The position numbers and the translations under genes are program-made. The notes under the pieces were generated by a model. The model was not told the origin of the DNA. It searched no databases and saw only the letters and a program-made list of their open reading frames with translations. From Halococcus saccharolyticus DSM 5350 (lineage in GTDB: Archaea > Halobacteriota > Halobacteria > Halobacteriales > Halococcaceae), in the NCBI RefSeq assembly GCF_000336915.1, contig NZ_AOMD01000030.1, positions 509-64,508 on the forward strand: a DNA stretch of 64,000 nt, in the 5' to 3' direction. This document shows positions 29,113 through 45,210 of the stretch, piece after piece (position 1 is the stretch's first letter; each line of letters begins with the position of its first letter).

Positions 29113-29187
29113 GCTCCGGTGGTGTAGTCCGGCCAATCATATTGCCCTCTCACGGCAATGACCAGGGTTCGAATCCCTGCCGGAGCA
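29113..29187 (+). tRNA. tRNA-Glu (CTC)
   Basis: 75 bases. Acceptor GCTCCGG pairs fully with CCGGAGC, discriminator A. The anticodon stem TTGCC..GGCAA closes the loop CTCTCAC, giving anticodon CTC (reads GAG). The T arm has GGGTTCGAATCCC. It is the intact host gene and forms the left attachment site of the integrative element; the integrase gene starts 58 bases after its end. Confidence 0.95.
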
Positions 29188-29190
29188 CTT
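29117..29190 (+). repeat. attL: left 74-bp direct repeat
   Basis: Starts at base 5 of tRNA-Glu and runs to CGGAGCACTT after the gene. Identical to 45137-45210; the sequences diverge immediately outside (CTATACC against TTCGAGC on the right). Confidence 0.9.
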
Positions 29191-29233
29191 CTATACCGTT
29201 TCCGTACGGTGGTTTTCTCCCCCCTATGTCAAA

Positions 29234-29240
29234 GAGGGAG
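29234..29240 (+). promoter_or_regulatory. Ribosome-binding site deciding the integrase start
   Basis: GAGGGAG four bases before ATG 29245. It supports this start rather than the longer frame that opens inside the tRNA at 29158. Confidence 0.6.
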
Positions 29241-29244
29241 AACA

Positions 29245-30387
29245 ATGGCAGAAGTTAACGAGGTGGGTTCACCCCCGTCTCCACGGAAGATCGAGGGCAT
29301 CGTAGTTGTACCAAAACCGACGGTTGAACGCCTTACTGAAAGACAGTTGGTTGATTACCACAATCACCGCACGAAGTTGATGCGGTGGATTCTCAACTTG
29401 GGTAAGAACCCACAGAAGGGAGAGGGGTATGCCTACCAAACAGCAAAAATACGGTGTGCGCGAATAGATCAATTCTATCGTTTCGTGTGGAACACAGAAG
29501 ACCGGTACACGACGACTGTCACTCACGACCACGCAGATGCGTACATGAAACAACTGGCCTACGGGGACACCTCACAGGAAAACAAAGCGAGTCACCAGAA
29601 GACGACGAAAATGTTGTTTCGGTGGCGCGCGTGGGAGTTCAGTGACGAAGAATGGGAACCGGAAATCACCTTCAGCGGCGACAACTCGACGACGAACCCT
29701 CGTGATTACCTCACAATAGAAGAACGACAGATGGTTCGTGAGGCTGCACTGGAGTACGGTTCAATCCCATCCTACCGTGGACTGTCGCCACAAGAGCGTG
29801 ACCAGTGGAAGGCACACCTCGCACAACGGTTCGGAAAGCCAAAGAACGAAATCACACGAGATGACTTTAACCGTGCGAATTCGTGGAAGATACCGTCTCT
29901 GGTGTGGGTTTGCTTAGACACAGGGCTGAGACCTATCGAGGTTGAGCGAGCAACTATCCACTGGGTTGATCTCGATAACAGGGTGCTTCGGATTCCAAAA
30001 GAGGAGAGTTCGAAAAACAGCGACAACTGGATTGTGAGCCTCACTGATCGGACTGTGAGTGCTTTATCCAGATGGGTCGCTGAACGGGATCAGTACGAGA
30101 AGTACGACAGCGAAGATGCCTTGTGGCTTACTCGGGAGGCAACAACGTACCAGTCTTACTCACTAAACCACATCCTTGACCGATTATGCGACATTGCGGG
30201 GATATCAACGAACGGACGCAAGGTCACGTGGTATTCGATTCGACACTCGGTAGGGACGTACATGAGTAGGGAGGAGGGGTTGGCCGCTGCTCAGGCCCAA
30301 CTACGGCACAAGAGCGAGCAGACCACGATGAGATACGATCAGACTCCCGTGGAGGATCGACGTGATGCTCTGAACAAAATGGGATAG
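29245..30387 (+). CDS. Tyrosine recombinase / integrase
   Basis: 380 residues. An N-terminal SAM-like DNA-binding region (about 60-160, with THDHADAYMKQLAYG) precedes the catalytic domain: the first Arg in CLDTGLRPIEVERATI, a Lys-containing beta hairpin (LRIPKEESSKNSDNWIVSL), the R..H box YSIRHSVGTYM, a late His in QLRHKSEQTTMRYDQT, and the nucleophile Tyr in that same segment. It would catalyse integration and excision between the 74-bp att repeats. It directly follows the left att site, the usual arrangement for tRNA-targeting elements whose integrase is not split by insertion. Confidence 0.9.
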   Translation: MAEVNEVGSPPSPRKIEGIVVVPKPTVERLTERQLVDYHNHRTKLMRWILNLGKNPQKGEGYAYQTAKIRCARIDQFYRFVWNTEDRYTTTVTHDHADAYMKQLAYGDTSQENKASHQKTTKMLFRWRAWEFSDEEWEPEITFSGDNSTTNPRDYLTIEERQMVREAALEYGSIPSYRGLSPQERDQWKAHLAQRFGKPKNEITRDDFNRANSWKIPSLVWVCLDTGLRPIEVERATIHWVDLDNRVLRIPKEESSKNSDNWIVSLTDRTVSALSRWVAERDQYEKYDSEDALWLTREATTYQSYSLNHILDRLCDIAGISTNGRKVTWYSIRHSVGTYMSREEGLAAAQAQLRHKSEQTTMRYDQTPVEDRRDALNKMG

Positions 30388-30428
30388 GTTACGGCCAAAA
30401 TCCCTATGATCCTGTGCAAGAGTATGTC

Positions 30429-31076
30429 AGCCCCGTCTGACCTAGGCACCCAGTCGGGGATAGGGAGGGTGCGGTAGGCTCGTCTGACAGCTCATATCCC
30501 CTCCCGTATCGTCACTAAACCTACCATGGCCGAAACCACTAATATCATGTGTGAGTGAGTGTCATTCCCGGCTGCCCAGCCTGTACCCAGTCGGGGACGT
30601 GTGGAGGCCATCCTGCATTGGCTACTGTCCCGGTTCCTCCCACGTTTACTGACCATGACGGTATTAACATTTATTCAACAAAATTGAGCATGTTTATGTC
30701 GTGTGATAACGTACTTTTATCGGTGGTTGGGGATAGGGTGCTCATCTACCCTATTCGGACCGACCTGCGAATCACCAACGGGTAGCTCACCGAACCGAAT
30801 CGCCAAATCTGCCATGTCCATAACCGCTATTACGGTATGTGATAGTCTATCAATCCCGACTGACCGCCACCACCCAGTCGGGGACACGGGAAGCCATCCT
30901 GCATTGGCGTCTTTCCAGGGTTCTCCCGTGTTTAGTGGCTTTGGCCGAAACACTCTTTACAACACAATCTGTGCGAAAATATACCGACTGATAGCCACCC
31001 AGTCGGGACGTTGGGAGGAGAAAATCGCGTCGCATTGTCATCACCCGTCCACACTCCTCCTGCGTTTTCTAACCAA
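30429..31076. repeat. Tandem array of five structured 130-150 bp units
   Basis: Units begin near 30431, 30567, 30720, 30855 and 30984. Four of them (all but the third) have hairpin 1, CCCGACTG..CAGTCGGG (perfect at 30855-30882 and 30984-31006, one mismatch or wobble in the first two), immediately followed by hairpin 2. Hairpin 2 arms differ between units but stay complementary: GATAGGGAGGG with CCCTCCCGTATC, ACGTGTGGAGG with CCTCCCACGT, ATAGGGT with ACCCTAT, ACACGGGA with TCCCGTGT, GGAGGAG with CTCCTCC. The hairpin 2 loop keeps GCATTG in three units. No coding frame. It could be a tandem non-coding RNA or a protein-binding/replication site; strand unknown. Confidence 0.7.
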
Positions 31077-31170
31077 GAGACCCGCCGACACTCGCCATTG
31101 ACGGCAGATAGGATTACACTATGAGCTACCAGTTGGCACGCCAGAGTCGCCAACATCGTAGCGACGTCGC

Positions 31171-31695
31171 CTAAATTTCACCACCCAGTACCCAGAGCGC
31201 CCTATCCAACTCACGCAGAGATGTATCAAATTCACGAGACAATGCACGACACGTCCCAAGATAGATCAAATAGTCTTCTGTGGATGGAGGATCAGGAAAC
31301 TCACTGAAGAGATGACCCGTCTCATGCAGTAAGGCCCACGCTCGCCAGTCTAACACAGTATGATTCTCGGGGGCCATGTATACCAGAAATGCAGACGCTA
31401 CCCGAACTGCCACCCCGCTGAGGTCCGTAAGCAGGTCCAGTTTCTTGGTGACACTGTCCTCTCTGTACACCTGGGTAATGACCTCTGCTGTGTTGTCGGG
31501 GTCATTCTGCCGAAAATACCCGATGCTACGGTTACTCTTCCATTTGACTATCCACTCCAGATCATCCCACGACCAAGTTCCGGCTTCAAAGTCGCTTGGT
31601 AGGGTTTCGATTTTCCTTGCCTCTTCCTCATACTCAGGTACGCTCTCTCGGTATTGGCGTGCCTTCTGTTCGATAAGTGAATTCGTCAGTTGCAT
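31171..31695 (-). CDS. Hypothetical protein with helix-hairpin-helix (DNA glycosylase-like) motif
   Basis: 174 residues. The stretch LTDLSGVAVRVASAFLVYMA resembles the hairpin L-x-G-V-G-x-x-x-A-S-x-x-L of HhH-GPD glycosylases, followed by an Asp in ENHTVLDWRAWALL at the place of the catalytic Asp. The region SWDDLEWIVKWKSNRSIGYF precedes it. The chain is shorter than classical glycosylases and has no Fe-S cysteines. Downstream (201 bases) of the helicase-like gene on the same strand. DNA binding is inferred; base-excision activity is not shown. Confidence 0.6.
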   Translation of the reverse strand: MQLTNSLIEQKARQYRESVPEYEEEARKIETLPSDFEAGTWSWDDLEWIVKWKSNRSIGYFRQNDPDNTAEVITQVYREDSVTKKLDLLTDLSGVAVRVASAFLVYMAPENHTVLDWRAWALLHETGHLFSEFPDPPSTEDYLIYLGTCRALSREFDTSLRELDRALWVLGGEI

Positions 31696-31895
31696 GTTGA
31701 GGAATGATTTCGGTAGGTAATATATCTCTGTCTGGTCGTTCTCACTTTCTTGAGATGGATGCCTAAACTCATGTGAGAGACACTACCATTCATGTATACT
31801 GAAAATAGTATGCCATAGCAACGCACGAATTGTGACGTTGCATATAACTACTCTATACAACTTCACAAATACTGCTAACTGTTGGCATTATTTGG

Positions 31896-33695
31896 TTACA
31901 CCCATTCGTATAGCGTGACACCGCTATCGTTTGTACCTGCTCGTGAGACGAAGCCATCGTCCGAAAGTTGTTTGAGACATTCTGAGACGGATTTTCTACT
32001 GGCGCTCGTATTTGTAGTGATCTCTTTTTGAGTTGCTCCCCCACCAATCTCCCGAAGATAGTCAACGATCTCCCTCTTTTTCTTTCCACGGAACTTCTTT
32101 GGGTTGAGGGTTTCATCTACCGAAATCCAATCTGGATAGGCAGAGGTGTTGAGTACAACAGTAGGCTGAAGATTGCCTTTACGACCGAACCGGAAAATCG
32201 CCTGGAGTACTTGATGCTCTCGAAAGTGACGGAAGACTTCATCTCCAAGTATACCGTAGGAGAGATCCATACCAAACCCCCTACCTGAACTCTTGTTTCG
32301 ATTGGGCTCTGCTGCAACGCCCATTAGCGCGGCCCACCGTTTGATTACATCATCTCCTGGGTGGGGTGCACCGCTAACGACACCAAGCTCCTTATTCTCG
32401 AATTTATTTGAGCTCAGCATCATACCATAGTTCATAGAATCTTCTACGCGATTAAGGACGCCATTCTGCTTGTACTGATCAAGCGCCTTTTTCGTAGACA
32501 TTAGTGCTGGCTTCTTACCGTAATGAAGCTCCAAGCCTAAGAACAGACCTTCATCTTTTTCAAGAGTCACTTGATTCCCTGAGGAGTAGTGCTTAGCTGC
32601 AGGCTTGTTGAACTTGGTTTGCTCTATACGGTATCCTTGTATATCTTTCAGATAGTGATCCTGTTCATTCTCTGGGATTACCTGCCTATGTGTGAACGAT
32701 TCTCTAAACACTGTATTCCACATTTTCAGTGTTGGCGTCCCATCGAGACCAACTATTGACCGTGCAGCACCCAGATTCGGTGGGTTAAGTAGGTGCATCT
32801 CATTTGTCGTTCGATTTCGAACACCGACTAGATTACCGAGCAATTGACGTTCCGGTTCAAGATGAGACAGCGACACACCCTCATAAAACCGACCTCCTGC
32901 TTCATAGCTATCAATGTAGGCGTTAGTAGTCTCGAACCCATTTCCGAGATCTTCCATGAAGAGCATCGCAAGTAGAAGATCACCTGCAGAGGTGTGGATA
33001 GTGGTCCCCGAATTGTTGATAATCTCCCGAGGGCTGAGCGTCATCTCATCGTAATTAGCGAGAAACCAACTGATTTGGCGACGATTATTTCGGTTAGCTA
33101 CTAAGTCGGTCCAATCACTAAACGGTGGTTTCGTGAACCGATTCAAGAAATCAGAGACAATGGGCTCAGGTTCAGAAAAAGATCTTGTCAGCGCATCTTC
33201 CGCGAACTCGTCAATGACGACAATACGGTCATCTATGATTGATTCTCGGTGGGCGTGTGAGTAGTGACCGATAATAACATCGTATTGACTCTCATCGAAA
33301 TCAACCTGATCACGGTAAGGACAATTGGGATTACAAGGCAAGTTCAGTTGATAGTGTAAACTCCCACCTCCTACGCCTCGTTTGTATAGGTCTCTTATGT
33401 ATGATTTCCAGCGACCACCGTGGTCGCCTTTGAACGTGGGGCAGTTCCGATGAGGCGATGGTAAAATCTTAGCGGTGAGATTTCGACCCTGAGCGAGTTT
33501 TTCAGCTTGCTCGTATAGATCAGTTCGTTCTGTGAGATAGGTAATAGGGAGTCCCAGTTGTGCAGCGACATCAAATGTAGCAGTGGTTTTGCCAGTACCC
33601 GGTAGTGCATGAACGAGAATGCTATTTTCTGATTGAAACGCATCCTCTATCACTGAAGAAGTCCGATCCCGCACGTCCTGTAATGATTGGAACAT
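31896..33695 (-). CDS. Helicase-like P-loop ATPase with C-terminal winged helix
   Basis: 599 residues. Walker A is LVHALPGTGKTTATFDVAAQ (about 28-47) and the DExx box is RIVVIDEFAEDALTRSF (about 155-172), placing it near SF2 helicases. Between them are three Cys (HRNCPTF; LPCNPNCPY), reminiscent of the Fe-S insert of XPD-like helicases but one short. A late Gln/Arg-rich segment HQVLQAIFRFGRKG resembles motif VI. The last 70 residues (KKREIVDYLREIGGGATQKE to VTLYEWV) form a winged helix that starts with ITTNTSASRKSVSECLKQLS. A replication or defence helicase of the element is likely. No close family named. Confidence 0.65.
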   Translation of the reverse strand: MFQSLQDVRDRTSSVIEDAFQSENSILVHALPGTGKTTATFDVAAQLGLPITYLTERTDLYEQAEKLAQGRNLTAKILPSPHRNCPTFKGDHGGRWKSYIRDLYKRGVGGGSLHYQLNLPCNPNCPYRDQVDFDESQYDVIIGHYSHAHRESIIDDRIVVIDEFAEDALTRSFSEPEPIVSDFLNRFTKPPFSDWTDLVANRNNRRQISWFLANYDEMTLSPREIINNSGTTIHTSAGDLLLAMLFMEDLGNGFETTNAYIDSYEAGGRFYEGVSLSHLEPERQLLGNLVGVRNRTTNEMHLLNPPNLGAARSIVGLDGTPTLKMWNTVFRESFTHRQVIPENEQDHYLKDIQGYRIEQTKFNKPAAKHYSSGNQVTLEKDEGLFLGLELHYGKKPALMSTKKALDQYKQNGVLNRVEDSMNYGMMLSSNKFENKELGVVSGAPHPGDDVIKRWAALMGVAAEPNRNKSSGRGFGMDLSYGILGDEVFRHFREHQVLQAIFRFGRKGNLQPTVVLNTSAYPDWISVDETLNPKKFRGKKKREIVDYLREIGGGATQKEITTNTSASRKSVSECLKQLSDDGFVSRAGTNDSGVTLYEWV

Positions 33696-34271
33696 AGATT
33701 ACCACAGTATTGTTGCGGGACCAGTAAGCACTTTCGCGCTATTTTCATCTGTGTCCCCTCTGTAGTCGTAGCAACAATCGTTCTATCGATTGTTTTGATA
33801 CACCAGCGTTTCTTAACCAAATTCGTTCCACCTCATTTTGAGGATACCGTGACAGAGGACGAATCAGAGGCCACCTTTGCCTGATTTCTCTCGCAGTAGA
33901 CTAACATGTGCCCCACAGCCAGGACCTCGAACCTTCTGCTTACTTACTCCTTGGCCCTGTAACGACGGAGTTTTGCTCCTCTGGGATTTGAATATGATCC
34001 CTGTCGGTATCATCCTCTTGTCAACAAAGTCGCTTAGGAGCTGAATACGCGCTTCCTGTAGCAAATGATATTAATCCAAAGCCCAAGTAGTACTACCATA
34101 TATGATAATAGAACGTAGATCAGCCACATAATCGTTCTAGTGGCTGATTCCAAGACATTCTGCAAGATCATAACGACGAGAAGACAGACGATTTGAGCAG
34201 GCTACATAAGGGGAACTGTGGTTCAAGAGTCTGTTTTTAGCTGGCAGTCGCTATTTCGGACATTGCTATCC
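33696..34271. other. AT-rich intergenic stretch within the element
   Basis: No supported gene. A clean hairpin ATCAGCCAC - 12 bases - GTGGCTGAT lies at 34119-34148. A 66-codon minus-strand frame at 33864-34064 lacks protein-like composition. Minus-strand GGTTCGAGGTCC near 33930 resembles a tRNA T arm but has no matching stems. Confidence 0.4.
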
Positions 34272-34415
34272 TTACCATACTTCTCCAATTAGGCGAAATG
34301 GAACTCTGAGGCCTGGCAGTCGTTTGGATTTATCACACTCATATCTCCTGCCTGGGTCTTGGATGACTGCACGGTCGATACGCGTTCTGAGACGACGATC
34401 AATCCAGTAATACAT
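34272..34415 (-). CDS. Possible small basic protein
   Basis: 47 residues: MYYWIDRRLRTRIDRAVIQD, PGRRYECDKSKRLPGLRVPF, RLIGEVW. Highly basic, unlike host proteins. A strong TATA-like run lies 24-35 bases before the ATG, in support of transcription. No family recognised. Confidence 0.4.
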   Translation of the reverse strand: MYYWIDRRLRTRIDRAVIQDPGRRYECDKSKRLPGLRVPFRLIGEVW

Positions 34416-34437
34416 GATCGAAACAGGAATCCGTACA

Positions 34438-34450
34438 CTTTTTTTAAATA
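34438..34450 (-). promoter_or_regulatory. TATA-like promoter of the small basic gene
   Basis: TATTTAAAAAAAG on the minus strand, 24-35 bases upstream of ATG 34415. Confidence 0.4.
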
Positions 34451-34592
34451 CGGTGTTGAGATGGCTACCTAGTTGGATTACCTGGCCTCAAACTTGGCTC
34501 GTGAATATTGCTCAGCGGGTGCATTTTATACACAGAGGTGTACACCAGGGGGTTTTGGCACGAATAAAGCCGATTTTGTCGCACCACAGCAA

Positions 34593-35555
34593 TCAAAACT
34601 GCTGGATCCTGTTGTGGAATACATTGTGGAAACGCTCGCCGTATTCGATATACCAGTCAAAATATTCGCCCCACTTTTCACGATTTTCCAGGTCGCCATC
34701 CCGAGCAATACTAAGATTGCTCCTCATTTTTCCTGTTCGTGTTTCTCGAGGCTCTCCCCATTCGACCTCCCTTCCTAACTCTTGCTCGATCGCTTCTTCT
34801 TCAGACTTCAGTTCCCAGAACGCCTCTTCGTCGTCCTCTATATTGAGATCAAGCCGCAATTCATTTTCTTGTGATAGGACGACAAATGATATATGGAATC
34901 CAGATTTCCCAATCGGGTTCCCGTAGTAGTGGATTGGCTTCGGTTTGCGAGGTCTGAGTATGGTCGACGAGTCATCAATACGGTCACGAAACTGAGTCCA
35001 AAACTCTTCCTGTAGCTCCTTGGTCTCAGTAATTTCCCCCCCAGATCGCTGCGCCTTTCTTTTCCACTCGCTTGGTTTCTCCACTGGATTTAGCCGAATC
35101 GCTGGCTGAGAGTCGCCAATTCTCCACACTTCCAACCGGATTGCAAATAGGTCAACACCTTCACGACTGTTCTGATTTAGCCACTGAATCGCATCTTGAT
35201 GCTCGTCATTGAATGTCGGCGCGATCCAGACGATGATATCGGCATTGACACCTGCGGCATATGCAATCGCCTTGCCGAGGTGATCATGGTCGGACTGATC
35301 TAGCTGATTCTCGATTACCACTTGTCGGCCGTCATCGACCACCTCCGCAAGGATATCGAGGTTGTACCTCCCGACGCTCTTCTCGGTCTCAACGATCTCT
35401 ACATCCAACCCAAGAACGTCCTCGAGGTGAGACGCATCTTCGTTCCGTATGGAATCCGCCAGCCAGGGGGTGAAATTGTGGGCTTCGTGCACCCAGTAGT
35501 CTCGTACGTCTTGAGGTACCAGCTCCTGAAACACAGGCCCCTCTGGTTCTGACAT
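34593..35555 (-). CDS. DUF4268 protein with PD-(D/E)XK nuclease-like domain
   Basis: 320 residues from ATG 35555 (a TTG at 35582 would add nine). The N-terminal domain contains SVGRYNLDILAEVVDDGRQV then VIENQLDQSDHDHLGKAIAY: D..(10)..ExQ followed by a Gln and a helix, the layout of a PD-(D/E)XK nuclease with Gln in place of the Lys. The C-terminal part (about 200-320: FWTQFRDRIDDSSTI; RLDLNIEDDEEAFWEL; WGEYFDWYIEYGERF) matches DUF4268. Proteins of this type are common in restriction and defence neighbourhoods. Convergent geometry with the helicase gene is absent: both are on the minus strand, separated by about 900 bases. Confidence 0.75.
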   Translation of the reverse strand: MSEPEGPVFQELVPQDVRDYWVHEAHNFTPWLADSIRNEDASHLEDVLGLDVEIVETEKSVGRYNLDILAEVVDDGRQVVIENQLDQSDHDHLGKAIAYAAGVNADIIVWIAPTFNDEHQDAIQWLNQNSREGVDLFAIRLEVWRIGDSQPAIRLNPVEKPSEWKRKAQRSGGEITETKELQEEFWTQFRDRIDDSSTILRPRKPKPIHYYGNPIGKSGFHISFVVLSQENELRLDLNIEDDEEAFWELKSEEEAIEQELGREVEWGEPRETRTGKMRSNLSIARDGDLENREKWGEYFDWYIEYGERFHNVFHNRIQQF

Positions 35556-35719
35556 AGCCACAATCTCTTTCGAGAGGGACAAAAACCTCGGGTCGTACTA
35601 TCGCACAACACTTCGTCTAACGAGTCTGGCTAACAGCATCCATTATTCAGGATCCATCTGATGCACTCACCAATGCGAACTTATATCACACCTCTCCTGC
35701 CAGTTTGGGAACTGAAACC

Positions 35720-36775
35720 ATGAGTGAAGACGTTACCGTCATGACCTGGAATCTTCACGGAGAAAACCACCCCTCCAGAAGCACAATACAGGAGCAAATA
35801 GACTTCCTAAAAGAATATCATCAGGATACCGATCTCTTCCTCTTTCAAGCCGTTGACTACACAAAAAAGGACGAGAGCGAAGATTTCAGCCACTTCCAGC
35901 AGATCAAGTCTCATTTCGAAGAACGCGATTACTACACGACCGACAACCGCGACTGGAACCGCCAGTTGCTCAACCTCGACGTACAACCCTACCACAACAT
36001 CAACAGTCCTTTTCGACGCTGCAAAATCACTGCCAGCCGTTGGCCAATAGACAGAGAACCGCTAGATCTGAGAAACAATGGAAACGGAAAACCCAGGCAC
36101 CTAAACTACTTCTACGCCAGTTTCCTCACTGGTCCTTTTGTCGCCAATGTGTATCTTCATAACGAAGAAATCACCGACAACGAAGGCCTTGAAGTCTGGA
36201 ACGCGGGCATTATACATGGCTCAGGTTGGAAAGAAGAGAAAATCAAAGCCCTCGAAACAGTCTACAGCAGGATCTACCTCCAAAACCAGCAGACAGACAA
36301 GAAAATCATCCTCGGCGGTGACTTCAACGCGCCTTGGAAAGAAACGAAAACAGACGAAGGCGTCGAGATTCACCCTCACAGCCCAGATGCAAAACATCTC
36401 AACAAACCCTTCTATGGAAACCCGTATCGTTACCAAGCCGAAAACGGTGGCACCAAACAATTCCCCTTCAACCAGCGCTGGCGGAACGCAGAGAGCTATA
36501 TTTTCGATTCAGAGAAGAGCGATTGGGATATGAAAGACGCATACTGGCACGCTAATGACAGTCTCGAACTGAATAGCACTGAAGACCACACTCACGTGGT
36601 CAACAACGGAAACCCGCCCAACAAACGAATAGATCACCTCCTCGCTGACGACCACTTTAACATCAAGAGCTGCGAGATCCAGAACGGCATTGAGGTAGAA
36701 GCAAACGGGTTCAGCAACGGGAAAACACCAAGCGACCACGCTCCTGTCAAAGCTACCCTAGAAATCGAAGCCTAA
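35720..36775 (+). CDS. Endonuclease/exonuclease/phosphatase (EEP) superfamily protein, atypical
   Basis: 351 residues. EEP motifs in order: VMTWNLHGEN (Asn), FLFQAVDYTKKD where the family has LQEVD, LHNEEI, ILGGDFNAPWKE, KRIDHLLADDH and SDHAPVKATLEI (catalytic His). The metal-binding Glu of the LQE motif is replaced (FQAVD), so activity may be altered or lost, or another Glu may serve. Codons are strikingly A-rich with many Lys and Asn residues, unlike the host, which argues for recent transfer. Divergent from the DUF4268 gene; the 160-base gap would hold both promoters. Confidence 0.8.
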   Translation: MSEDVTVMTWNLHGENHPSRSTIQEQIDFLKEYHQDTDLFLFQAVDYTKKDESEDFSHFQQIKSHFEERDYYTTDNRDWNRQLLNLDVQPYHNINSPFRRCKITASRWPIDREPLDLRNNGNGKPRHLNYFYASFLTGPFVANVYLHNEEITDNEGLEVWNAGIIHGSGWKEEKIKALETVYSRIYLQNQQTDKKIILGGDFNAPWKETKTDEGVEIHPHSPDAKHLNKPFYGNPYRYQAENGGTKQFPFNQRWRNAESYIFDSEKSDWDMKDAYWHANDSLELNSTEDHTHVVNNGNPPNKRIDHLLADDHFNIKSCEIQNGIEVEANGFSNGKTPSDHAPVKATLEIEA

Positions 36776-37108
36776 ACAAGGTTGGAACAGATGTTGTAAT
36801 ACTTAGAACCCCATTCTCGGAGACAGTACATACTCCGTGAACCCTTACTCAATCATACCTTTTGTCGTCATATACAGGACTATCCGATTCTCGAAGAAGT
36901 CGTTGGCATAGCGGAATACTTTAACCGTGACCAGATTCCTCGGGTCAGGGTTGACCTCCAAAGTCGGGACCGGAAACTCGGACCTGATCGGATGGACCAA
37001 CCTGTTCCCTCCCTTCATTTGAGTGAATCTACAGGACATAAGACGACCAGGGGCACCGCGCCAGGACTCCCTGAGTTTTAATTACCTTACCTGCTTGCGG
37101 TGCTATAG
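36776..37108. other. Intergenic stretch before hsdM with ambiguous open frames
   Basis: A plus-strand frame of about 80 codons without ATG/GTG start (YPILEEVVGIAEYFNRDQIP and onwards to 37080) looks protein-like and could be a gene remnant. A 64-codon minus frame with ATG (36845-37039) overlaps it. They cannot both be real and neither is supported by a family. Confidence 0.3.
37076..37084 (+). promoter_or_regulatory. TATA box of the type I restriction operon
   Basis: TTTTAATTA centred about 29 bases before the hsdM ATG at 37109; the three hsd genes overlap and probably share it. Confidence 0.65.
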
Positions 37109-39100
37109 ATGGTGGACAACTTTGGCGAGAAGGTCGATTTCATCTGGTCAGTTGCTGACCTCCTCCGTGGCGACTATAAGCAGTCGGAGTATCAACGGGT
37201 AATTCTACCTCTAACCGTTCTTCGACGACTCGACTGTGTTACGGCACCAACAAAGGATGCAGTTATTCAGAAGGCAGAGGAACTTAACGAACAAGGGGTG
37301 GAGAACGTTGACCCTGTCTTGCAGAACATTTCTGCTTCACCAGTTTATAACACCAGCGAATACACCTTCGAGACGCTGACGAACGATCCCGAGCACCTCT
37401 CCGAAAACCTCCAGCACTATATCCAGCAATACGATCCCGACACGCGCGAGATATTGGAGAAGTTCGAGTTTGACCATCAAATAGAGCGACTTGACGAGGC
37501 AGACCTCCTCTACAGGGTAGTCACTTCCTTTGCTGAAATCGATCTTCACCCAGATACCGTCCCGAACGAAGAGATGGGGTACATCTACGAGGAGCTTGTC
37601 CGCAAATTCTCAGAACTCTCGAACGAAACTGCTGGTGAACACTTCACGCCACGGGAGGTTATCGAGCTCATGGTCAACCTTCTATTTACTGAAGACGACG
37701 ATGTACTCACTCAGCCTGGTATTATTCGCACTCTATACGACCCTGCCTGTGGCACAGGTGGGATGTTGAGCGTCGCTGAAGAGCATCTTAACGATCTCAA
37801 TGAGGATGCCGATCTCAGACTGTTTGGGCAGGAGTTGAATCCCGAGTCGTACGCGGTTTGCAACTCTGATATGCTACTGAGGGGGCATGACCCCGACAAC
37901 ATTGTCTACGGGAACTCGTTTACTGGGGACGGCTTCTCAGGTGACACGTTCGATTACATGCTATCGAACCCACCCTTTGGCGTCTCTTGGAAGAAGGTCA
38001 AAGAGCAGATCGAACGCGAACACGAAGAACAGGGGTTCGACGGGCGCTTCGGTGCCGGAACCCCTCGCATTAGTGATGGCTCTATGCTGTTTCTTCAGCA
38101 CATGGTGAGCAAGATGAAACCGGTCTCTGAGGGGGGTTCTCGACTGGGAATTGTGTTCAATGGTTCTCCTTTGTTTAACGGTGGACCGAATAGCGGTGAA
38201 TCTGCTATCCGTCGATGGATTATTGAAAACGACTGGTTAGAAGCTATTGTTGGTCTGCCTGAGAATCTATTCTACAACACCGGGATTCGGACATACATCT
38301 GGGTTCTCACGAATCGCAAGCCAGAGGAACGGGAAGGAAAAGTCCAGCTCATCGACGCACGCGACCTTTACGAAGAAATGGACGAAAGTCTCGGCGACAA
38401 GCGCCACTATCTTACCGGAGATCACATTGACGAGATCGCCAGTCTATTCGGTGACTTAGAGGCTAACGGTCGCTCAAAGATCGTAGACAACGAGGACTTT
38501 GGATACAGACGCATCGTCATTGACCAACCACTCCGACTGAGCTTCCAGGCAACCCAGGAACGGATTGACTCTCTTGACGACGAACGTGCGTTTACCAATC
38601 GCGACGAAGAAATTCAGGCACAGGTCAAAGAGACGCTTTCTAGTATGGATTCGGAGAAGGTATGGATGGATCGAGACGGGTTCATCGACGAGGTTGAGCT
38701 GCAGTTGAATATGGCTGGCCTCGATTTGCGAAATAGTGTCTACAACGCTATCGAGCGGGCGCTTGGGGAACAGAACCCAGATGCCGAGATTTGCCGAAAA
38801 TCAAACGGTGATCCTGAACACGATACTGATCGACGTGAGAAAGAACGTGTACCACTCGGGACCGATCCATACGAATATTTCGAGCGTGAAGTCGCCCCGT
38901 ACTTAGAGAACGCGTGGATCAACGAGAGCAGCAAGTACCACGACGACCAGGACGGCGAATTGGGAACTGTTGGGTACGAAATCAACTTCAATCGGTACTT
39001 CTACGAGTACGAACCGCCGCGGTCGCTGGACGAGATCGACGCAGATATTCGGGAGTTAGAGGGTGAGATCAGCGAGATGCTGGGAGAGATTTCGAGATGA
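37109..39100 (+). CDS. hsdM: Type I restriction-modification methyltransferase subunit HsdM
   Basis: 663 residues, N6-adenine methyltransferase. The N-terminal helical domain (FIWSVADLLRGDYKQSEYQR; VLRRLDC) is followed by the FTPREVIELMVNLLF entry, SAM motif I DPACGTGGMLSVAEEHL and the catalytic motif IV NPPFGVSW (in DYMLSNPPFGVSWKKV). A late region YRRIVIDQPLRLSFQAT and C-terminal helices interact with HsdS. Longer than classical HsdM (about 520) by a C-terminal extension. Its stop overlaps the hsdS start (ATGA). Confidence 0.95.
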   Translation: MVDNFGEKVDFIWSVADLLRGDYKQSEYQRVILPLTVLRRLDCVTAPTKDAVIQKAEELNEQGVENVDPVLQNISASPVYNTSEYTFETLTNDPEHLSENLQHYIQQYDPDTREILEKFEFDHQIERLDEADLLYRVVTSFAEIDLHPDTVPNEEMGYIYEELVRKFSELSNETAGEHFTPREVIELMVNLLFTEDDDVLTQPGIIRTLYDPACGTGGMLSVAEEHLNDLNEDADLRLFGQELNPESYAVCNSDMLLRGHDPDNIVYGNSFTGDGFSGDTFDYMLSNPPFGVSWKKVKEQIEREHEEQGFDGRFGAGTPRISDGSMLFLQHMVSKMKPVSEGGSRLGIVFNGSPLFNGGPNSGESAIRRWIIENDWLEAIVGLPENLFYNTGIRTYIWVLTNRKPEEREGKVQLIDARDLYEEMDESLGDKRHYLTGDHIDEIASLFGDLEANGRSKIVDNEDFGYRRIVIDQPLRLSFQATQERIDSLDDERAFTNRDEEIQAQVKETLSSMDSEKVWMDRDGFIDEVELQLNMAGLDLRNSVYNAIERALGEQNPDAEICRKSNGDPEHDTDRREKERVPLGTDPYEYFEREVAPYLENAWINESSKYHDDQDGELGTVGYEINFNRYFYEYEPPRSLDEIDADIRELEGEISEMLGEISR

Positions 39101-40428
39101 CCCAGGATCGGTTGGCGTTCGCCGAGGACGATCCGAGCCAGTCCGAAACGGTCCGGCTGAAACATCTCGCACGCATCAACCCATCGAAGTCGGAGATCGA
39201 CGATGTGCCACCCGACACGACGGTATCGTTCGTCCCGCTGGAAGGGTTCGGCACGAGTGGAGCTATCGAATCATCCGAGGAAAAGCCGCTTGCGGAGGTC
39301 TACGATGGATACACCTACTTTCGAGAAAGCGACATAGCGATAGCGAAGATCACGCCGTCGTTCGAGAACGGCAAAGGAGCCATCTGCAAAGGGCTGGAGA
39401 ATGGGATCGGTTTCGGAACGACGGAACTCCACATTCTGCGCCCGCGTGAGAACACGGACACGGGATTTCTGTGGTACGTCCTGCGCGCAAAGCCGTTCAT
39501 GGACGAGGCGGAAACGTCCATGCGGGGTGTCGCTGGCCAGAAGCGACTCAAATCGGAGTTCGTCGAAACATACCGCGTTCCGGAACTCCCGTTAGACGAG
39601 CAACGAGATGTTGCTGATTTTCTCGACCGCCGCACTGCCCGCATCGACGCGCTCGTAGCGAAACAGAAACGTCTCCTCGATTTGCTCGACGAGAAACGGC
39701 AGGCGTTCGTCACTCGGACCATAACAGCAGGTCTCGACTTTACGGTAGCGAAAAAGAGCACGGAGATTGGATGGTTTGACGAAATTCCTGCGCACTGGGA
39801 CACAACCCGTGTTCGATTCGTTGCGCGTTTGGAATCCGGCCATACACCGAGCAAGTCGAACGAAGAATACTGGACTGATACGGATGTCCCGTGGGTTTCC
39901 CTCGCAGATTCGGGACGACTGCGTAAAAATGACCGTATAACCGAGACGGAGCACTACACGAACCAGAAGGGTTTGAACAACTCTTCAGCGCATATTCTCC
40001 CCACAGGGACGGTCGTCTTCACACGAGACGCGACGGTTGGACTCTGCGCCATTTTGGATCGTCCTATGGCAGTCGCACAGCATCTTGTGGGATGGGTCTG
40101 TGGATCCAAAATACTGCCAGAATACCTACTCAACGTGTTTGAATCGATGGACCAGGAATTCGATTTGCTCACTCGTGGCTCTACCATTTCGACCATTGGG
40201 ATGCCCGACATCCGCTCGTTGAAGACTCCACTCCCTCCCGTGGAGGAACAACGCGAGATCGTCGAGCACATCCAAAATGAGACGGAACAACTCTCGAACC
40301 TCATCGACAACGTAGAGGAGGCAATCGACCTCCTCGAAGAGAAACGCCAGGCGCTCATCACGGCCGCGGTCACGGGCCAGATTGATGTTACCGAGGCCCG
40401 TGGTGAAACCCACGCCACTCACAGATGA
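39097..40428 (+). CDS. hsdS: Type I restriction specificity subunit HsdS
   Basis: 443 residues with two target-recognition domains, each followed by a conserved helix: LPLDEQRDVADFLDRRTARI then VAKQKRLLDLLDEKRQAFV (about 165-210), and PPVEEQREIVEHIQNETEQL then VEEAIDLLEEKRQALITA (about 380-430). The first TRD spans about 20-160, the second (HWDTTRVRFVARLESGHTPS onward) about 230-375. The two halves read a bipartite site; the sequence cannot be predicted from here. Overlaps both neighbours by four bases, giving a tightly coupled operon. Confidence 0.95.
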   Translation: MTQDRLAFAEDDPSQSETVRLKHLARINPSKSEIDDVPPDTTVSFVPLEGFGTSGAIESSEEKPLAEVYDGYTYFRESDIAIAKITPSFENGKGAICKGLENGIGFGTTELHILRPRENTDTGFLWYVLRAKPFMDEAETSMRGVAGQKRLKSEFVETYRVPELPLDEQRDVADFLDRRTARIDALVAKQKRLLDLLDEKRQAFVTRTITAGLDFTVAKKSTEIGWFDEIPAHWDTTRVRFVARLESGHTPSKSNEEYWTDTDVPWVSLADSGRLRKNDRITETEHYTNQKGLNNSSAHILPTGTVVFTRDATVGLCAILDRPMAVAQHLVGWVCGSKILPEYLLNVFESMDQEFDLLTRGSTISTIGMPDIRSLKTPLPPVEEQREIVEHIQNETEQLSNLIDNVEEAIDLLEEKRQALITAAVTGQIDVTEARGETHATHR

Positions 40429-43397
40429 GCAAAATCTACGACGAGGAGTCCTTCGGGGACGCCATCGAAGCCCACCTCTGCGAGCACGGCGGCTACACGA
40501 CGCTGTCGAGCGACGATTTCGATACTGAGCGCGGGTTCTTCCCGGATACCGTCGTCTCGTTCGTTAAGGAAACCCAACCTGGGAAGTGGTCCGAGCTCGA
40601 AACTCGGCTTGGGGACGACCCACGTGATGAATTTCTCACACAACTCGACAGTGCACTCGATCGGCTTGACCAAGGAACCCTCGAAGTGCTTCGGCATGGA
40701 TTCAAGATCGCTGGCGTTCGTATCCAATTTGCTTACTTCCAGCCCGAAACGGGGTACAATCCCGATTTGCGGGAGAAGTACCAGGGAAATCGGCTCACCG
40801 TCACGAGAGAACTTTACTACTCTACATCCCACCCAAATCGAAGCCTCGATCTTTGTCTGTCGATAAATGGGCTACCTGTCGCCACTGTCGAGTTGAAGAA
40901 CCCGTGGACAGACCAGACTATTGAGGACGCGAAGACCCAGTACAAGAAGACCCGAGATCCATCACAACCTGTCCTCAAGTTTAAGCGAGGTGCAATTGTT
41001 CATTTTGCACTCGACCAGAACCAAGTCGCCTACACCACTCGACTCGAGGGTTCTGATACCCACTTTTTGCCATTTAACCGGGGACACAATCGTGGAGCAG
41101 GCAACCCACCGGTCGATCATGGCCACCGTACAAATTATCTCTGGGAGGATATCTGGTCCAGAGACAGTTGGCTCGATATCATTCGACGGTATGTTCATCT
41201 CGATACTGAGGAGATCCGTCAAGATGGCATCGTAGTGGATACGAAGGAGACAATGATTTTCCCGCGGTATCATCAATTAGAGTGCGTCCGTAACCTCATT
41301 GAGGCATCTCAGAATAACGGTCCAGGCGAGGACTATCTCGTTCAGCACTCAACTGGCAGTGGAAAAAGCAAATCTATCGGATGGCTCGCCCATCGTTTTG
41401 TCTCCCTCCATAACGCAGACGAGGAGCCCGTTTACGATTCCGTCGTTGTCGTCACAGACCGGACTGTTCTTGATGACCAGCTCCAAGACACGATTTACGA
41501 TATCGACCACGAACATGGAGTGGTCCACGGTGTAGAGGGCGAGAATCGGTCCAAATCCGCCGAACTTGCCGAGTATCTGGAGAAAGGGAAAGATATCATC
41601 ATCACCACGCTCCAGACCTTCCCATACGTCATTGAGCACGCTGCCTCGCTTCCCGAACGGGATTACGCTGTTATCGTTGACGAGGCTCACAGTAGTCAGA
41701 CGGGAGAAATGGCAAAGGAGATGAAAGAGATTCTCTCGGGCGCTGAGATCGAGGAAAACGACGATTGGGAAACGCTTCTCGCTAAAAGTGCTGAGGCTCG
41801 TGGCAAGCAAGACAACCTCTCGTTCTTTGCTTTTACAGCCACTCCCAAAGGCAAGACGTTGGAAACATTCGGTACAGTACCGGAGGATAGCGAAAATCCT
41901 GAGCCATTTCATGTATATTCAATGCGGCAGGCAATTGAGGAGGGATTCATTCTCGATGTTCTCCAGAACTATACCACCTACAATACGTACTACAATCTCG
42001 TCCAGCAGGCTGATGAAGATCCTCGTCTTCCAGAAAGCGAAGCAAAAGGAGCAATCTCCCGCTTCCTAAAACTCCATCCTCACAATATCAGCCAAAAGGT
42101 GGAGATCATCGTCGAACACTATCGCGAACACACCCAACACAAGATTGGGGGTCGGGCGAAAGCTATGATCGTCACCGACTCTCGAAAGGCTGCTGTCCGC
42201 TACAAGCGAAAAATCGACGAGTATCTCTCAGAACAAGACTACGATCTGAAGGCGTTGGTTGCATTCAGTGGTACTGTCGAGGAGGAGGGCGTCGAATACA
42301 CTGAAACGGGGATGAATGGCATCCAACAGTCAGAACTCCCCCGCAAATTCTCTAGCTCGGAGTATCAGGTTCTCGTCGTCGCCGAAAAGTACCAAACGGG
42401 GTTCGATGAACCGCTCCTTCACACAATGTATGTCGATAAGAAACTCTCCGGAGTCCAGGCTGTTCAAACCCTTTCACGACTAAATAGGACCGCTCCTGGA
42501 AAGGAAGATACCTTTGTTCTCGACTTCGTTAACGACCGAGACCAGATTCAGGAAGCCTTCCAACCTTTCTATGAGCAAACAACTGTTGAAGAAACCACTG
42601 ACCCGCAGCACATCTACCAATTAGAGTCCGAACTGAGGGCGTTTCCGGTGTTTACCGATGAGGAAGTCGACCAGTTCGCGAAGGCATTCTTTAGTCCACA
42701 GAATACAGCTACTGAGCAGGCACATGCCAAACTCTCGCAACACACTCAAAACGCCCGTGATCAGTTCATAACGCTCCCTGTAGAACGACAGGACGAATTT
42801 CGCTCAAAGCTCAAAGCATTCATTCGCTTATACAAATTCCAGTCGCAGATCGTCAGTTACTCCGATACCGAACTTGAGAAGCTCTATACATTTGGTCGCT
42901 TCCTCTACAAAGAACTTCCACGAGATCCACAAGATGCCAGTGTCGAGTTTGAAGATGAGCTCGCCCTCCGTTACTACCGGATCGAGAAAGAGTCAGAGGG
43001 GGACATTCGACTTGATCAATCTGCTGGCGAGGTATCGGTGCCAACTGAAACCGGAACTCGATCACAAGAAGAAGACGAGATCGAACTCTCAAAGCTAGTT
43101 GAGCGGATCAACGAACAATTAGGTACGGATTTCACTGGCGCAGATGAGTTGTTCCTCCAACAGGTGAAGGAGGATGCACTTGATGATGAGAATCTGCAGC
43201 AATCGGCACGGGCGAACACAAAAAGTAACTTTTCCTATGCCTTCGACGAGAAGCTCACCGAGATGTTCATCGATCGAATGGAACAGAATGAGGACCTCTT
43301 TGCCAAGTATATCGACGATGACGAATTCCAAACACTGGTAACGGACTTACTTCGGGACGAAGTATATGAAGCGAGTCAAGAAACTGCTGAATCGTAG
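40425..43397 (+). CDS. hsdR: Type I restriction endonuclease/translocase subunit HsdR
   Basis: 990 residues. N-terminal PD-(D/E)XK nuclease with SLDLCLSINGLPVATVELKN (ExK = ELK). The SF2 motor follows: Walker A STGSGKSKSIGWLAHR, motif Ia VVVTDRTVLDDQL, DEAH box VIVDEAHSSQTGEM, motif III FFAFTATPKGKTLETFG, motif V/VI VVAEKYQTGFDEPLLHTMYV and QAVQTLSRLNRTAPGK. The C-terminal helical region binds the methylase core. All motifs are intact, so cleavage of unmodified DNA by translocation is expected. Confidence 0.95.
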   Translation: MSKIYDEESFGDAIEAHLCEHGGYTTLSSDDFDTERGFFPDTVVSFVKETQPGKWSELETRLGDDPRDEFLTQLDSALDRLDQGTLEVLRHGFKIAGVRIQFAYFQPETGYNPDLREKYQGNRLTVTRELYYSTSHPNRSLDLCLSINGLPVATVELKNPWTDQTIEDAKTQYKKTRDPSQPVLKFKRGAIVHFALDQNQVAYTTRLEGSDTHFLPFNRGHNRGAGNPPVDHGHRTNYLWEDIWSRDSWLDIIRRYVHLDTEEIRQDGIVVDTKETMIFPRYHQLECVRNLIEASQNNGPGEDYLVQHSTGSGKSKSIGWLAHRFVSLHNADEEPVYDSVVVVTDRTVLDDQLQDTIYDIDHEHGVVHGVEGENRSKSAELAEYLEKGKDIIITTLQTFPYVIEHAASLPERDYAVIVDEAHSSQTGEMAKEMKEILSGAEIEENDDWETLLAKSAEARGKQDNLSFFAFTATPKGKTLETFGTVPEDSENPEPFHVYSMRQAIEEGFILDVLQNYTTYNTYYNLVQQADEDPRLPESEAKGAISRFLKLHPHNISQKVEIIVEHYREHTQHKIGGRAKAMIVTDSRKAAVRYKRKIDEYLSEQDYDLKALVAFSGTVEEEGVEYTETGMNGIQQSELPRKFSSSEYQVLVVAEKYQTGFDEPLLHTMYVDKKLSGVQAVQTLSRLNRTAPGKEDTFVLDFVNDRDQIQEAFQPFYEQTTVEETTDPQHIYQLESELRAFPVFTDEEVDQFAKAFFSPQNTATEQAHAKLSQHTQNARDQFITLPVERQDEFRSKLKAFIRLYKFQSQIVSYSDTELEKLYTFGRFLYKELPRDPQDASVEFEDELALRYYRIEKESEGDIRLDQSAGEVSVPTETGTRSQEEDEIELSKLVERINEQLGTDFTGADELFLQQVKEDALDDENLQQSARANTKSNFSYAFDEKLTEMFIDRMEQNEDLFAKYIDDDEFQTLVTDLLRDEVYEASQETAES

Positions 43398-43429
43398 CCG
43401 GAATTTTTGCTGTGCTTTCATCGACGATG

Positions 43430-43436
43430 ATTTAAT
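43430..43436 (+). promoter_or_regulatory. TATA box of the gene after hsdR
   Basis: TTTAATA about 29 bases before ATG 43463, suggesting that the gene after hsdR has its own leaderless transcript. Confidence 0.5.
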
Positions 43437-43462
43437 AGGATTTCGCACACGACCATGAGTAC

Positions 43463-44176
43463 ATGAGCAACCACCCACTTGAAGAAACACTGGTCATTGC
43501 TGCTCATACACAAATGCGCAACGAATTCAACGATATTCAGTCGATCGCCACCTCTGGAAAGGAAGAAAGTGAAGTAGGATTCGATATTACTGTTCCGGAG
43601 GTGAAACAACTCTGCCTACAGTATAAAAGACCGAAAATTTTGAAGACAGGAGGATATAAATTCAAAATCGACGAAACTCAACGAGATACCCTTCAAAAAT
43701 TCTCCAATAACGCTCCGTCGCAAATCAAAAGCAAGCATACCGACACTCTTGACAACCCATTTGTATATTATGCTTTTCCTTTGATTGAGGTTCATGAGCA
43801 CCTTCCGGTTACTCTTCAACGACTACTGCTGGTTGAAGTTGATGAAGTTAAGCCCAATACTTCCCTTATTTACGTTCCTGACCCTGGAAAACCGGTATTG
43901 ACAGCGGGGACTCCAAAACCGGATGTAGATCCTACCAGCGATCTTGATGCCCGGGTCAATGGAGAGAAGGAGCCCAATAGCATTGACTTGAGCGGCGTGT
44001 GGAGTTGGAGCGAATTTCGAGATGAGCTCACAAATTGCAGGATAGGACTTGGACTTAATGTACAGCCAAGTACTGAATATACGGAAGACGATCCCCACTA
44101 TCAAGGTCAGGCTACCGTCCCAGAGAATAGTGGGCCAACTACCACGATTATTGGAGACAGGCGATTCAAGATTTAG
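43463..44176 (+). CDS. Hypothetical protein, possibly nuclease-like, after hsdR
   Basis: 237 residues, no family recognised. The segment EVGFDITVPEVKQLCLQYKR (about 36-55) has Asp followed 12-14 residues later by Gln-x-Lys, a pattern seen in some PD-(D/E)XK folds. The middle contains NPFVYYAFPLIEVHEHLPVT and a Pro/Asp-rich loop. AT-rich codon use matches the rest of the element. It lies 66 bases after hsdR with its own TATA box, so it may be an accessory or second defence gene. The nuclease idea is tentative. Confidence 0.65.
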   Translation: MSNHPLEETLVIAAHTQMRNEFNDIQSIATSGKEESEVGFDITVPEVKQLCLQYKRPKILKTGGYKFKIDETQRDTLQKFSNNAPSQIKSKHTDTLDNPFVYYAFPLIEVHEHLPVTLQRLLLVEVDEVKPNTSLIYVPDPGKPVLTAGTPKPDVDPTSDLDARVNGEKEPNSIDLSGVWSWSEFRDELTNCRIGLGLNVQPSTEYTEDDPHYQGQATVPENSGPTTTIIGDRRFKI

Positions 44177-44764
44177 GGACCACTCTCAGGTATAGTACAT
44201 TGTTGACGGAGGGGTATTCTGCGATTCCATTGGTCTCTGGCAAACGGAGATTTATCATGAGAACTATTCTGTGGTCTAATTGCAGCACCCTTGAGGAAGA
44301 AACTCTATTATTAACCTCCGCCCGATAAGCGTAGGAAGCATATTTAATTCATCTGCTGTTAGGGAAGCATTGTGCTTCTCCTCATTTGATTCGTCTAGAG
44401 CCAGCTAATTTGCTGTGTATCGACGGAGGTTGGCTCCTGTGCTGTTTGACAATCAGCTAAGTAGTATGGATCGTTTTCACGTTGATCGTGCTTAGGAAGC
44501 AAGCTCCGTACACACAGAGTAAGGGTGAAAGAAACCGTCTCAGTGACCGTCGGTCAGACAGTGATAACAGATTCCGTCACCGATGTACGGTTCTTTCATC
44601 CTCTTACTACATTCCCGACAGGTTTGAAGACTCGCCTCTGGTTTCGATCGCTTGGTTTCTGCCATGGCATCATCCCCCCGATGGATACTGTCACTGGTGA
44701 GTATTAAACTCGCGGTAACATTCCATGGAGTCCTTTTAAAGAAGTTGAACAGTCAGGGTCTGGT
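44177..44764. other. Gene-free right end of the element
   Basis: No supported gene; short frames (44482-44700, 44525-44707) lack protein-like features. An imperfect hairpin between GGTGAAAGAAACCGT near 44525 and ACGGTTCTTTCATCC near 44587 is visible. Confidence 0.4.
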
Positions 44765-44965
44765 CTAAACCATACGGGTGGAAGCTGGAATCCACCGATC
44801 CGGATCCCACTCACTACGACTGATGCGATCTAACACACGACCGCTGTCAATGGCCTCGAAGATAATCTCGTCGTCGCGTTTCGCAACCACCTCCAACACC
44901 TCCTCGTCGGGTGTCGTGGTCGATTGGTACTGCTCTCCCGGTCGAACCTCGTCGAAGTGGGTCAT
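44765..44965 (-). CDS. Small conserved-looking hypothetical protein
   Basis: 66 residues, MTHFDEVRPGEQYQSTTTPD, EEVLEVVAKRDDEIIFEAID, SGRVLDRISRSEWDPDRWIP. A compact all-beta small protein rich in Asp, Glu and Val, as in short haloarchaeal proteins of unknown function. Composition is host-like and acidic, unlike the cargo around it. Last gene before the right att site. Confidence 0.65.
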   Translation of the reverse strand: MTHFDEVRPGEQYQSTTTPDEEVLEVVAKRDDEIIFEAIDSGRVLDRISRSEWDPDRWIPASTRMV

Positions 44966-45136
44966 TTTACTGACACCGAATGCGCTCCAACAGCGAGAGA
45001 AATAAATGTTAAGCGTGTCTCACTACCGGTCATTCCAATCAACATTGTTGAGTGGGTTATCACGGTGGGTTTTATGTTGATCGCGTACATCCAATCCAAG
45101 TGTAGAGGCGAGAAAATCGCCGTACGTGAGTCGGTT

Positions 45137-45210
45137 CGGTGGTGTAGTCCGGCCAATCATATTGCCCTCTCACGGCAATGACCAGGGTTCGAATCCCTGC
45201 CGGAGCACTT
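45137..45210 (+). repeat. attR: right 74-bp direct repeat (tRNA-Glu fragment)
   Basis: Identical to 29117-29190. As a tRNA it would start GGTTCGG against CCGGAGC, giving a G-G clash at pair 2 and a wobble at pair 4, so it is a truncated copy and not the functional gene. Confidence 0.9.

Follow-up and report, generated by a model that had tools for sequence, protein, structure and literature searches.

The element and the array behind its integrase

The window, i.e., the whole stretch of 64,000 nucleotides that was analyzed, contains a 16-kb element (29113-45210) integrated in a tRNA-Glu(CTC) gene. The intact gene at the left attachment site (29113-29188, + strand) and a second tRNA-Glu copy at the right end (45133-45208, + strand) were both found with ARAGORN, and the two ends share an exact repeat of 74 bases, 29117-29190 being identical to 45137-45210. 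The G+C content is about 0.5 inside the element, compared to about 0.65 outside. The cargo comprises a tyrosine integrase (PF00589; 29158-30387, + strand), a DUF4268 protein, a protein of the endonuclease/exonuclease/phosphatase family, and a type I restriction-modification system (37109-43397). The array considered here lies directly 3' of the integrase gene, 1.2 kb inward from the left end. A gene for a 174-aa protein (31171-31695) is convergent with the array; the protein matches nothing in Pfam (E up to 1), and visual inspection points to a possible metallopeptidase motif of the ImmA/IrrE type, HETGH.

An earlier note, prepared from the letters of this DNA, had described five degenerate units at this place, of which u1, u2, u4, and u5 stand. 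As stated there, hairpin 1 is present at four sites, its invariant right arm CAGTCGGG falling at 30449-30458, 30586-30595, 30873-30882, and 30998-31007; the right arm reads CCCAGTCGGG, without change, in all four units. Hairpin 2 follows immediately 3' of hairpin 1 in each of them, with arms that differ between the units and yet pair. The remaining candidate, u3 (30722-30765, + strand), is an inverted repeat that forms a lone, imperfect hairpin of 18 bp (GGTGGTTGGGGATAGGGT/ACCCTATTCGGACCGACC) between units 2 and 4, with 12 of 13 bases in common with unit 1 (GTTGGGGATAGGG). Because u3 has no hairpin 1 and scores at most 0 bits in the covariance model R2 (see below), the array is taken to have four members, and the covarying hairpin 2 that had been claimed for all five units holds for these four, u3 falling outside the family. 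It may represent a unit that has decayed, or else a terminator.

Each unit begins some 37 nt earlier than first described, with a promoter-like block, so that the array extends over 30392-31069. From 5' to 3', the promoter-like block of each unit is followed by a start-site A, then by the two hairpins, the second with a large loop, and by a closing T-run, all on the + strand; the blocks were defined by the alignment and profile of 43 units. In unit 1, the block (GGCCAAAATCCCTATGAT) covers 30392-30428 and the RNA, with a predicted start at 30429, would extend to 30511, with hairpin 1 at about 30431-30458 and hairpin 2 at about 30459-30509. The block of unit 2 (GGCCGAAACCACTAATAT, 30527-30563) precedes a predicted RNA at 30564-30646, in which hairpin 1 (about 30566-30596) and hairpin 2 (about 30596-30645) are followed by a T-run. 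Unit 4 has the same order, with the block GTCCATAACCGCTATTAC at 30815-30851 and the predicted RNA at 30852-30933 (hairpin 1 at about 30854-30882, hairpin 2 at about 30884-30931, then a T-run). Finally, the block of unit 5 (GGCCGAAACACTCTTTAC) is located at 30942-30978 and its RNA is predicted at 30979-31068, with hairpin 1 at about 30984-31006, hairpin 2 at about 31007-31065, and a closing TTTT.

Folding, covariation, and promoter-like blocks

The array is invisible to TRF, since its units are too diverged. Isolated, loosely cut stretches, which were folded first, gave MFE z-scores that were not significant; the support for the structure is comparative rather than thermodynamic. The fold with two adjacent hairpins appeared once the units were cut at the predicted start. 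It is then predicted for all four units of the window and is the MFE structure for 39 of 46 units, compared to 28% of the shuffled sequences, with a mean z of -2.1.

The comparative evidence comes from two kinds of test. When arms were swapped between units, those of the same unit were found to pair better, with z = -6.9 for hairpin 1 and -4.5 for hairpin 2, and none of 10,000 shuffles was as good; within the window array, three of the four 5' parts of hairpin 2 have their own 3' part as the best partner. In the 40-row model alignment, 97.3% of the cells pair and 10 of the 14 pairs change on both sides (33 such cells, against 5.7 in the shuffles). On this alignment, all 500 shuffles fall short in each of the five pairing measures, and pairing drops to 33-61% when the partners are slid. 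The fitting of the alignments A7 and A14 to the structure of the model biases them in its favor; the arm-swapping test uses no alignment and is the fairer of the two, and neither fully removes the effect of shared ancestry. The base of hairpin 2 is conserved as CGTGGG/CCCACG. These compensatory changes are in line with the earlier proposal that selection acts on a folded RNA and not on a protein, and they argue against the units being neutral tandem relics of an sRNA gene with no present function. Such relics might explain the decayed appearance of u3 and of three units elsewhere (L323_677, L319_9869, and L328_596); the chromosomal copies, however, are 88-99% identical beside a flank that diverges, and we regard the explanation as very improbable for the array.

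A coding reading was rejected, as orthologous units differ by indels of 1, 2, and 4 bases; stop-free frames over about 80 nt occur in 40 of 46 units and are uninformative. G-U pairs are frequent on the given strand and both hairpins pair better there than on the opposite strand, from which it follows that the given strand is likely to be the transcribed one. As far as can be read from the sequence, the units are RNA genes with a conserved secondary structure and compensatory changes.

The upstream sequences align in a block at a constant distance, with CCGAAAC and a T-rich hexamer. In the profile of 43 units, GGCCAcAA occupies positions -37 to -30 (GGCC at -37 to -34, A-A at -31/-30), TTTT is found at -27 to -24, and an A is present at -1 in 37 units. 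We take this block to be an archaeal BRE/TATA arrangement, with the start about 25 nt downstream. At the other end, a T-run of at least three bases closes hairpin 2 in 43 of 46 units. Each unit thus appears to have a BRE/TATA-like promoter of its own, at fixed spacing and with a start-site A, and to constitute, in full, a gene for a small RNA of about 75-95 nt. The transcript would begin just before hairpin 1, fold into the two adjacent hairpins, and end in the T-rich tract past hairpin 2.

A family in Halococcus and its genomic settings

The model R2 covers the promoter and the RNA, and u1, u2, and u4 were left out of its training set (unit 5 is a member of both R1 and R2). It recovers all of the held-out units, with E values of 2.4e-9 for u2, 2.7e-9 for u4, and 1.5e-4 for u1, and it gave two weak matches in other species, leading to a six-unit array on an integrase-bearing element (genome G210) and to a single copy between two transporter genes (G254). 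The model R3 was built only from these sequences of other species, three of which had extra stem bases trimmed for the alignment. With the filters off, its four best matches in the window are exactly the four units of the array, and it detects arrays of two to seven units in G157, G210, G237, and G254; elsewhere among 394 haloarchaeal genomes, nothing was above chance (best E 0.045). R2 also picks up the diverged units on which R3 is based. Since R2 recovers the R3-type units and R3 ranks the window units best, the two subfamilies constitute one family. The covariance-model check that the earlier note had suggested has in this way led to a genus-wide family, in agreement with one of the roles proposed there, namely, a multi-copy noncoding RNA.

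In total, the covariance models find more than 50 relatives in 7 of 10 Halococcus species genomes, both in arrays of two to seven units and as single copies, and no convincing member in about 400 other haloarchaeal genomes. Three genomes (G251, G257, and G394) have no member at the thresholds used. A search of the whole genome of the window and of the 394 genomes also showed the hairpin to be present elsewhere, on further contigs of the same genome as well as in relatives, and BLASTN of the array against the 394 genomes gave mostly noise, with three telling short matches. Single R1 matches in other genera were discarded because they are located inside genes, and the model matches L070-L072 and L203 were rejected because they fall inside coding genes. 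Pattern scans of IMG/VR returned 88 and 71 stretches with no real member, the loop motif being unmatched there, and the window array itself has no phage or plasmid match. The arrays match none of the 4227 Rfam families, with E values up to 1 considered. By sequence comparison, the window array is a real array of structured-RNA genes and an entry to an RNA family that is specific to Halococcus in the genomes searched and was not found in Rfam.

The units occur in chromosomes, plasmids, and integrated elements. By blastn, the arrays of G210, G157, and G237 map to two complete plasmids of Halococcus dombrowskii, NZ_CP095009.1 and NZ_CP095006.1, where R3 confirms the units; no feature is annotated there, and the family accounts for such unannotated stretches. 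The spacing of the units within arrays is mostly 127-209 nt. Several array members (L323_524, L323_677, L319_9869, and L328_596) have a decayed or truncated hairpin 1, which suggests birth and death of units inside arrays. Next to tRNA-Thr(TGT), two species have syntenic two-unit arrays (L326, 9669-10245, and L324, 171-755), and units of L320 flank tRNA-Leu(TAA) on both sides; the arrays may use tRNA genes as landing sites. In G237 (contigs C48, C69, C73, and C101) and G254 (contigs C25 and C60), several short contigs have an array close to one of their ends; the assembly may have been broken by repeated arrays or by IS elements next to them, and the true copy numbers may be higher.

A single copy is located behind a DNA-glycosylase gene in G000, G325, and G072, and a second one in G000 (L078) behind a thioesterase gene. 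Another single copy of G325 adjoins a DUF6414 gene in a small island of low G+C; this island (L050, 9680-11100, contig C79) consists of one RNA unit and the convergent DUF6414 gene and is apparently inserted beside a truncated gene. Similar single units are found between divergent MFS transporter genes in G254 (L220, 9826-9942) and in NZ_CP095006.1 (6350-6466), with different distances to the genes.

These settings bear on two other explanations. The position of the array directly behind an integrase and close to the left end of the element could indicate a cis-acting site, i.e., a replication origin, an excision or transfer site (both raised in the earlier note), or arm sites of the integrase. 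However, the array is missing beside all ten distant integrase relatives that were compared, and the association between the two is therefore incidental; an integrase-linked site, not being conserved beside related integrases, was rejected. As the single chromosomal copies L067 and L078 have no integrase beside them and other arrays are found on plasmids and next to tRNA-Thr and tRNA-Leu genes, a cis-acting role seems most unlikely.

We have also considered that the units are mobile or palindromic DNA elements, resembling MITEs, REPs, or IS200/IS605 ends, whose hairpins would work during transposition, in the single-stranded DNA. Such an origin would account for the copy behind the glycosylase gene, missing from that site in the close relative G394, for the thioesterase copy, seen at its site only in G000, and for the many copies near IS genes. 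On the other hand, a promoter at fixed spacing, frequent G-U pairs, and conserved loops would not be expected, the units are strongly diverged within one array, and loci are in synteny between species; no terminal inverted repeats or target duplications were noticed. This makes a DNA-level explanation improbable, if somewhat less so than a cis-acting site.

Loops and the proposed function

The loops of paralogues within one array differ, while orthologous units in other species keep theirs. For the chromosomal copies of G000 and G072, the RNA is 88% identical, compared to 57% over the next 80 bases downstream, and the core of the hairpin-2 loop, CGATGATCGTCTGTCCGTC, is unchanged. Between L324_312 and L320_10676, the promoters differ and the RNA is identical over almost its entire length; L319_9520 and L323_812 have nearly the whole of hairpin 2 and its loop in common and a changed hairpin 1. 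Since the loops vary between the units of one array and are kept in orthologues, we infer that they pair with mRNAs in trans. In the mechanism that we propose, hairpin 1 would make up a stable scaffold together with the GC-rich base of hairpin 2, and from this scaffold the variable unpaired loops, above all the 15-30 nt loop of hairpin 2, would base-pair with mRNAs. The array would then be a set of sibling sRNAs, each with different targets, and, as for siblings, several structurally alike copies, tandem or dispersed, are present in one genome. It is thus probable, with some reserve, that the window holds a tandem array of four sibling genes for trans-acting sRNAs, belonging to a family specific to Halococcus.

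When sites complementary to the loop of the chromosomal copy were sought, many chance-like ones turned up, the control was biased in composition, and no targets stood out. Against the Shine-Dalgarno sequence, the loops show weak complementarity, with z = -2.1 and -1.7. Scored against the anti-SD sequence, loop 2 does better than the shuffles (z = -4.5); this candidate was set aside, because part of the signal is a stem-like G-rich sequence.

The main rival is that the RNAs bind a protein and not mRNAs, acting as a decoy or sponge of the mobile element (or as a cofactor) that titrates a host RNA-binding or defense protein; the high copy number would give the dose and the conserved scaffold would be the binding site. 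Conserved loops and scaffold would fit protein binding equally well. The conserved architecture, with its constant hairpin-2 base, the high number of copies in a genome (G237 has 17 matches), and the frequent location on mobile elements and plasmids are consistent with such a role. In addition, certain words recur in the loops: loop 1 has ACCACC, and loop 2 has CATGGTCG or TCGTCTGTCC; ACCACC and CATGGTCG do so more than in shuffled loops. A sponge, however, would not need unit-specific loops that are kept in orthologues and differ in paralogues, and single chromosomal copies exist. We consider protein binding to be a serious, though clearly less probable, alternative. Less likely still is a modular system, in which a constant two-hairpin scaffold with interchangeable loops makes the arrays into guide sets for a host protein, which integrative elements and plasmids would spread between Halococcus genomes. 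An antitoxin-type RNA, also suggested earlier, finds no backing, as no constant protein partner was seen.

Comparison with known systems

In CRISPR arrays and CreA-type or Racr RNAs, too, structured RNA units that vary in part are arranged in tandem on mobile DNA. The Halococcus units, in contrast, have no constant repeat and spacer, and each has its own predicted promoter and two covarying hairpins. A CRISPR array, with near-identical short repeats and unique spacers, was rejected in view of the strong divergence of the units, as the earlier note had also concluded. An integron attC array was rejected because the units directly adjoin and their spacing leaves no room for cassette genes, and C/D or H/ACA guide RNAs because no conserved box is seen by eye in the aligned units and Rfam gives no match.

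OmrA/OmrB and LhrC are sibling sRNAs of bacteria. NgncR_162/163 of Neisseria gonorrhoeae are a further such pair (PMC9973317). Like these, the Halococcus family consists of several structurally alike genes, often in tandem, which in bacteria are thought to share or divide targets; unlike them, it has archaeal-type promoters, up to seven copies per array, diverged loops, and a location on integrative elements and plasmids. The literature search returned no tandem arrays of sibling sRNAs of such size borne by mobile elements in archaea. To our knowledge, targets are known for few archaeal sRNAs. The dozens of natural variants, in which the scaffold is kept and the loops are changed, constitute a ready-made experiment on target finding by archaeal sRNAs, and also on the multiplication of sRNA genes and their movement between chromosome, plasmid, and integrated element.

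A conserved intergenic sRNA of 69 nt, STRG.48671.1, has been described from Halococcus and is expressed in halite metatranscriptomes (PMC7002113). It is a possible member of the family and agrees with the array RNAs in genus, similar size, intergenic position, and conservation, a comparison made by description only; arrays, promoters, and mobile elements are features of the present units that do not appear in the part of the account consulted (PMC7002113). If STRG.48671.1 is an array RNA, expression of the family has already been shown (PMC7002113).

The nearest described archaeal mechanism is that of sRNA154 of Methanosarcina mazei, a nitrogen-regulated trans-acting sRNA conserved in Methanosarcina, in which two stem-loops bind mRNAs through their loops (PMC5867862). 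No sequence or Rfam relation to sRNA154 was found, and the Halococcus units are many diverged tandem siblings on mobile DNA. The likeness lies in the two stem-loops of a stand-alone, intergenic, archaeal gene, and the loops of sRNA154 carry the target-pairing sequence (PMC5867862), as those of the Halococcus RNAs would do in the sibling-sRNA reading that we favor.
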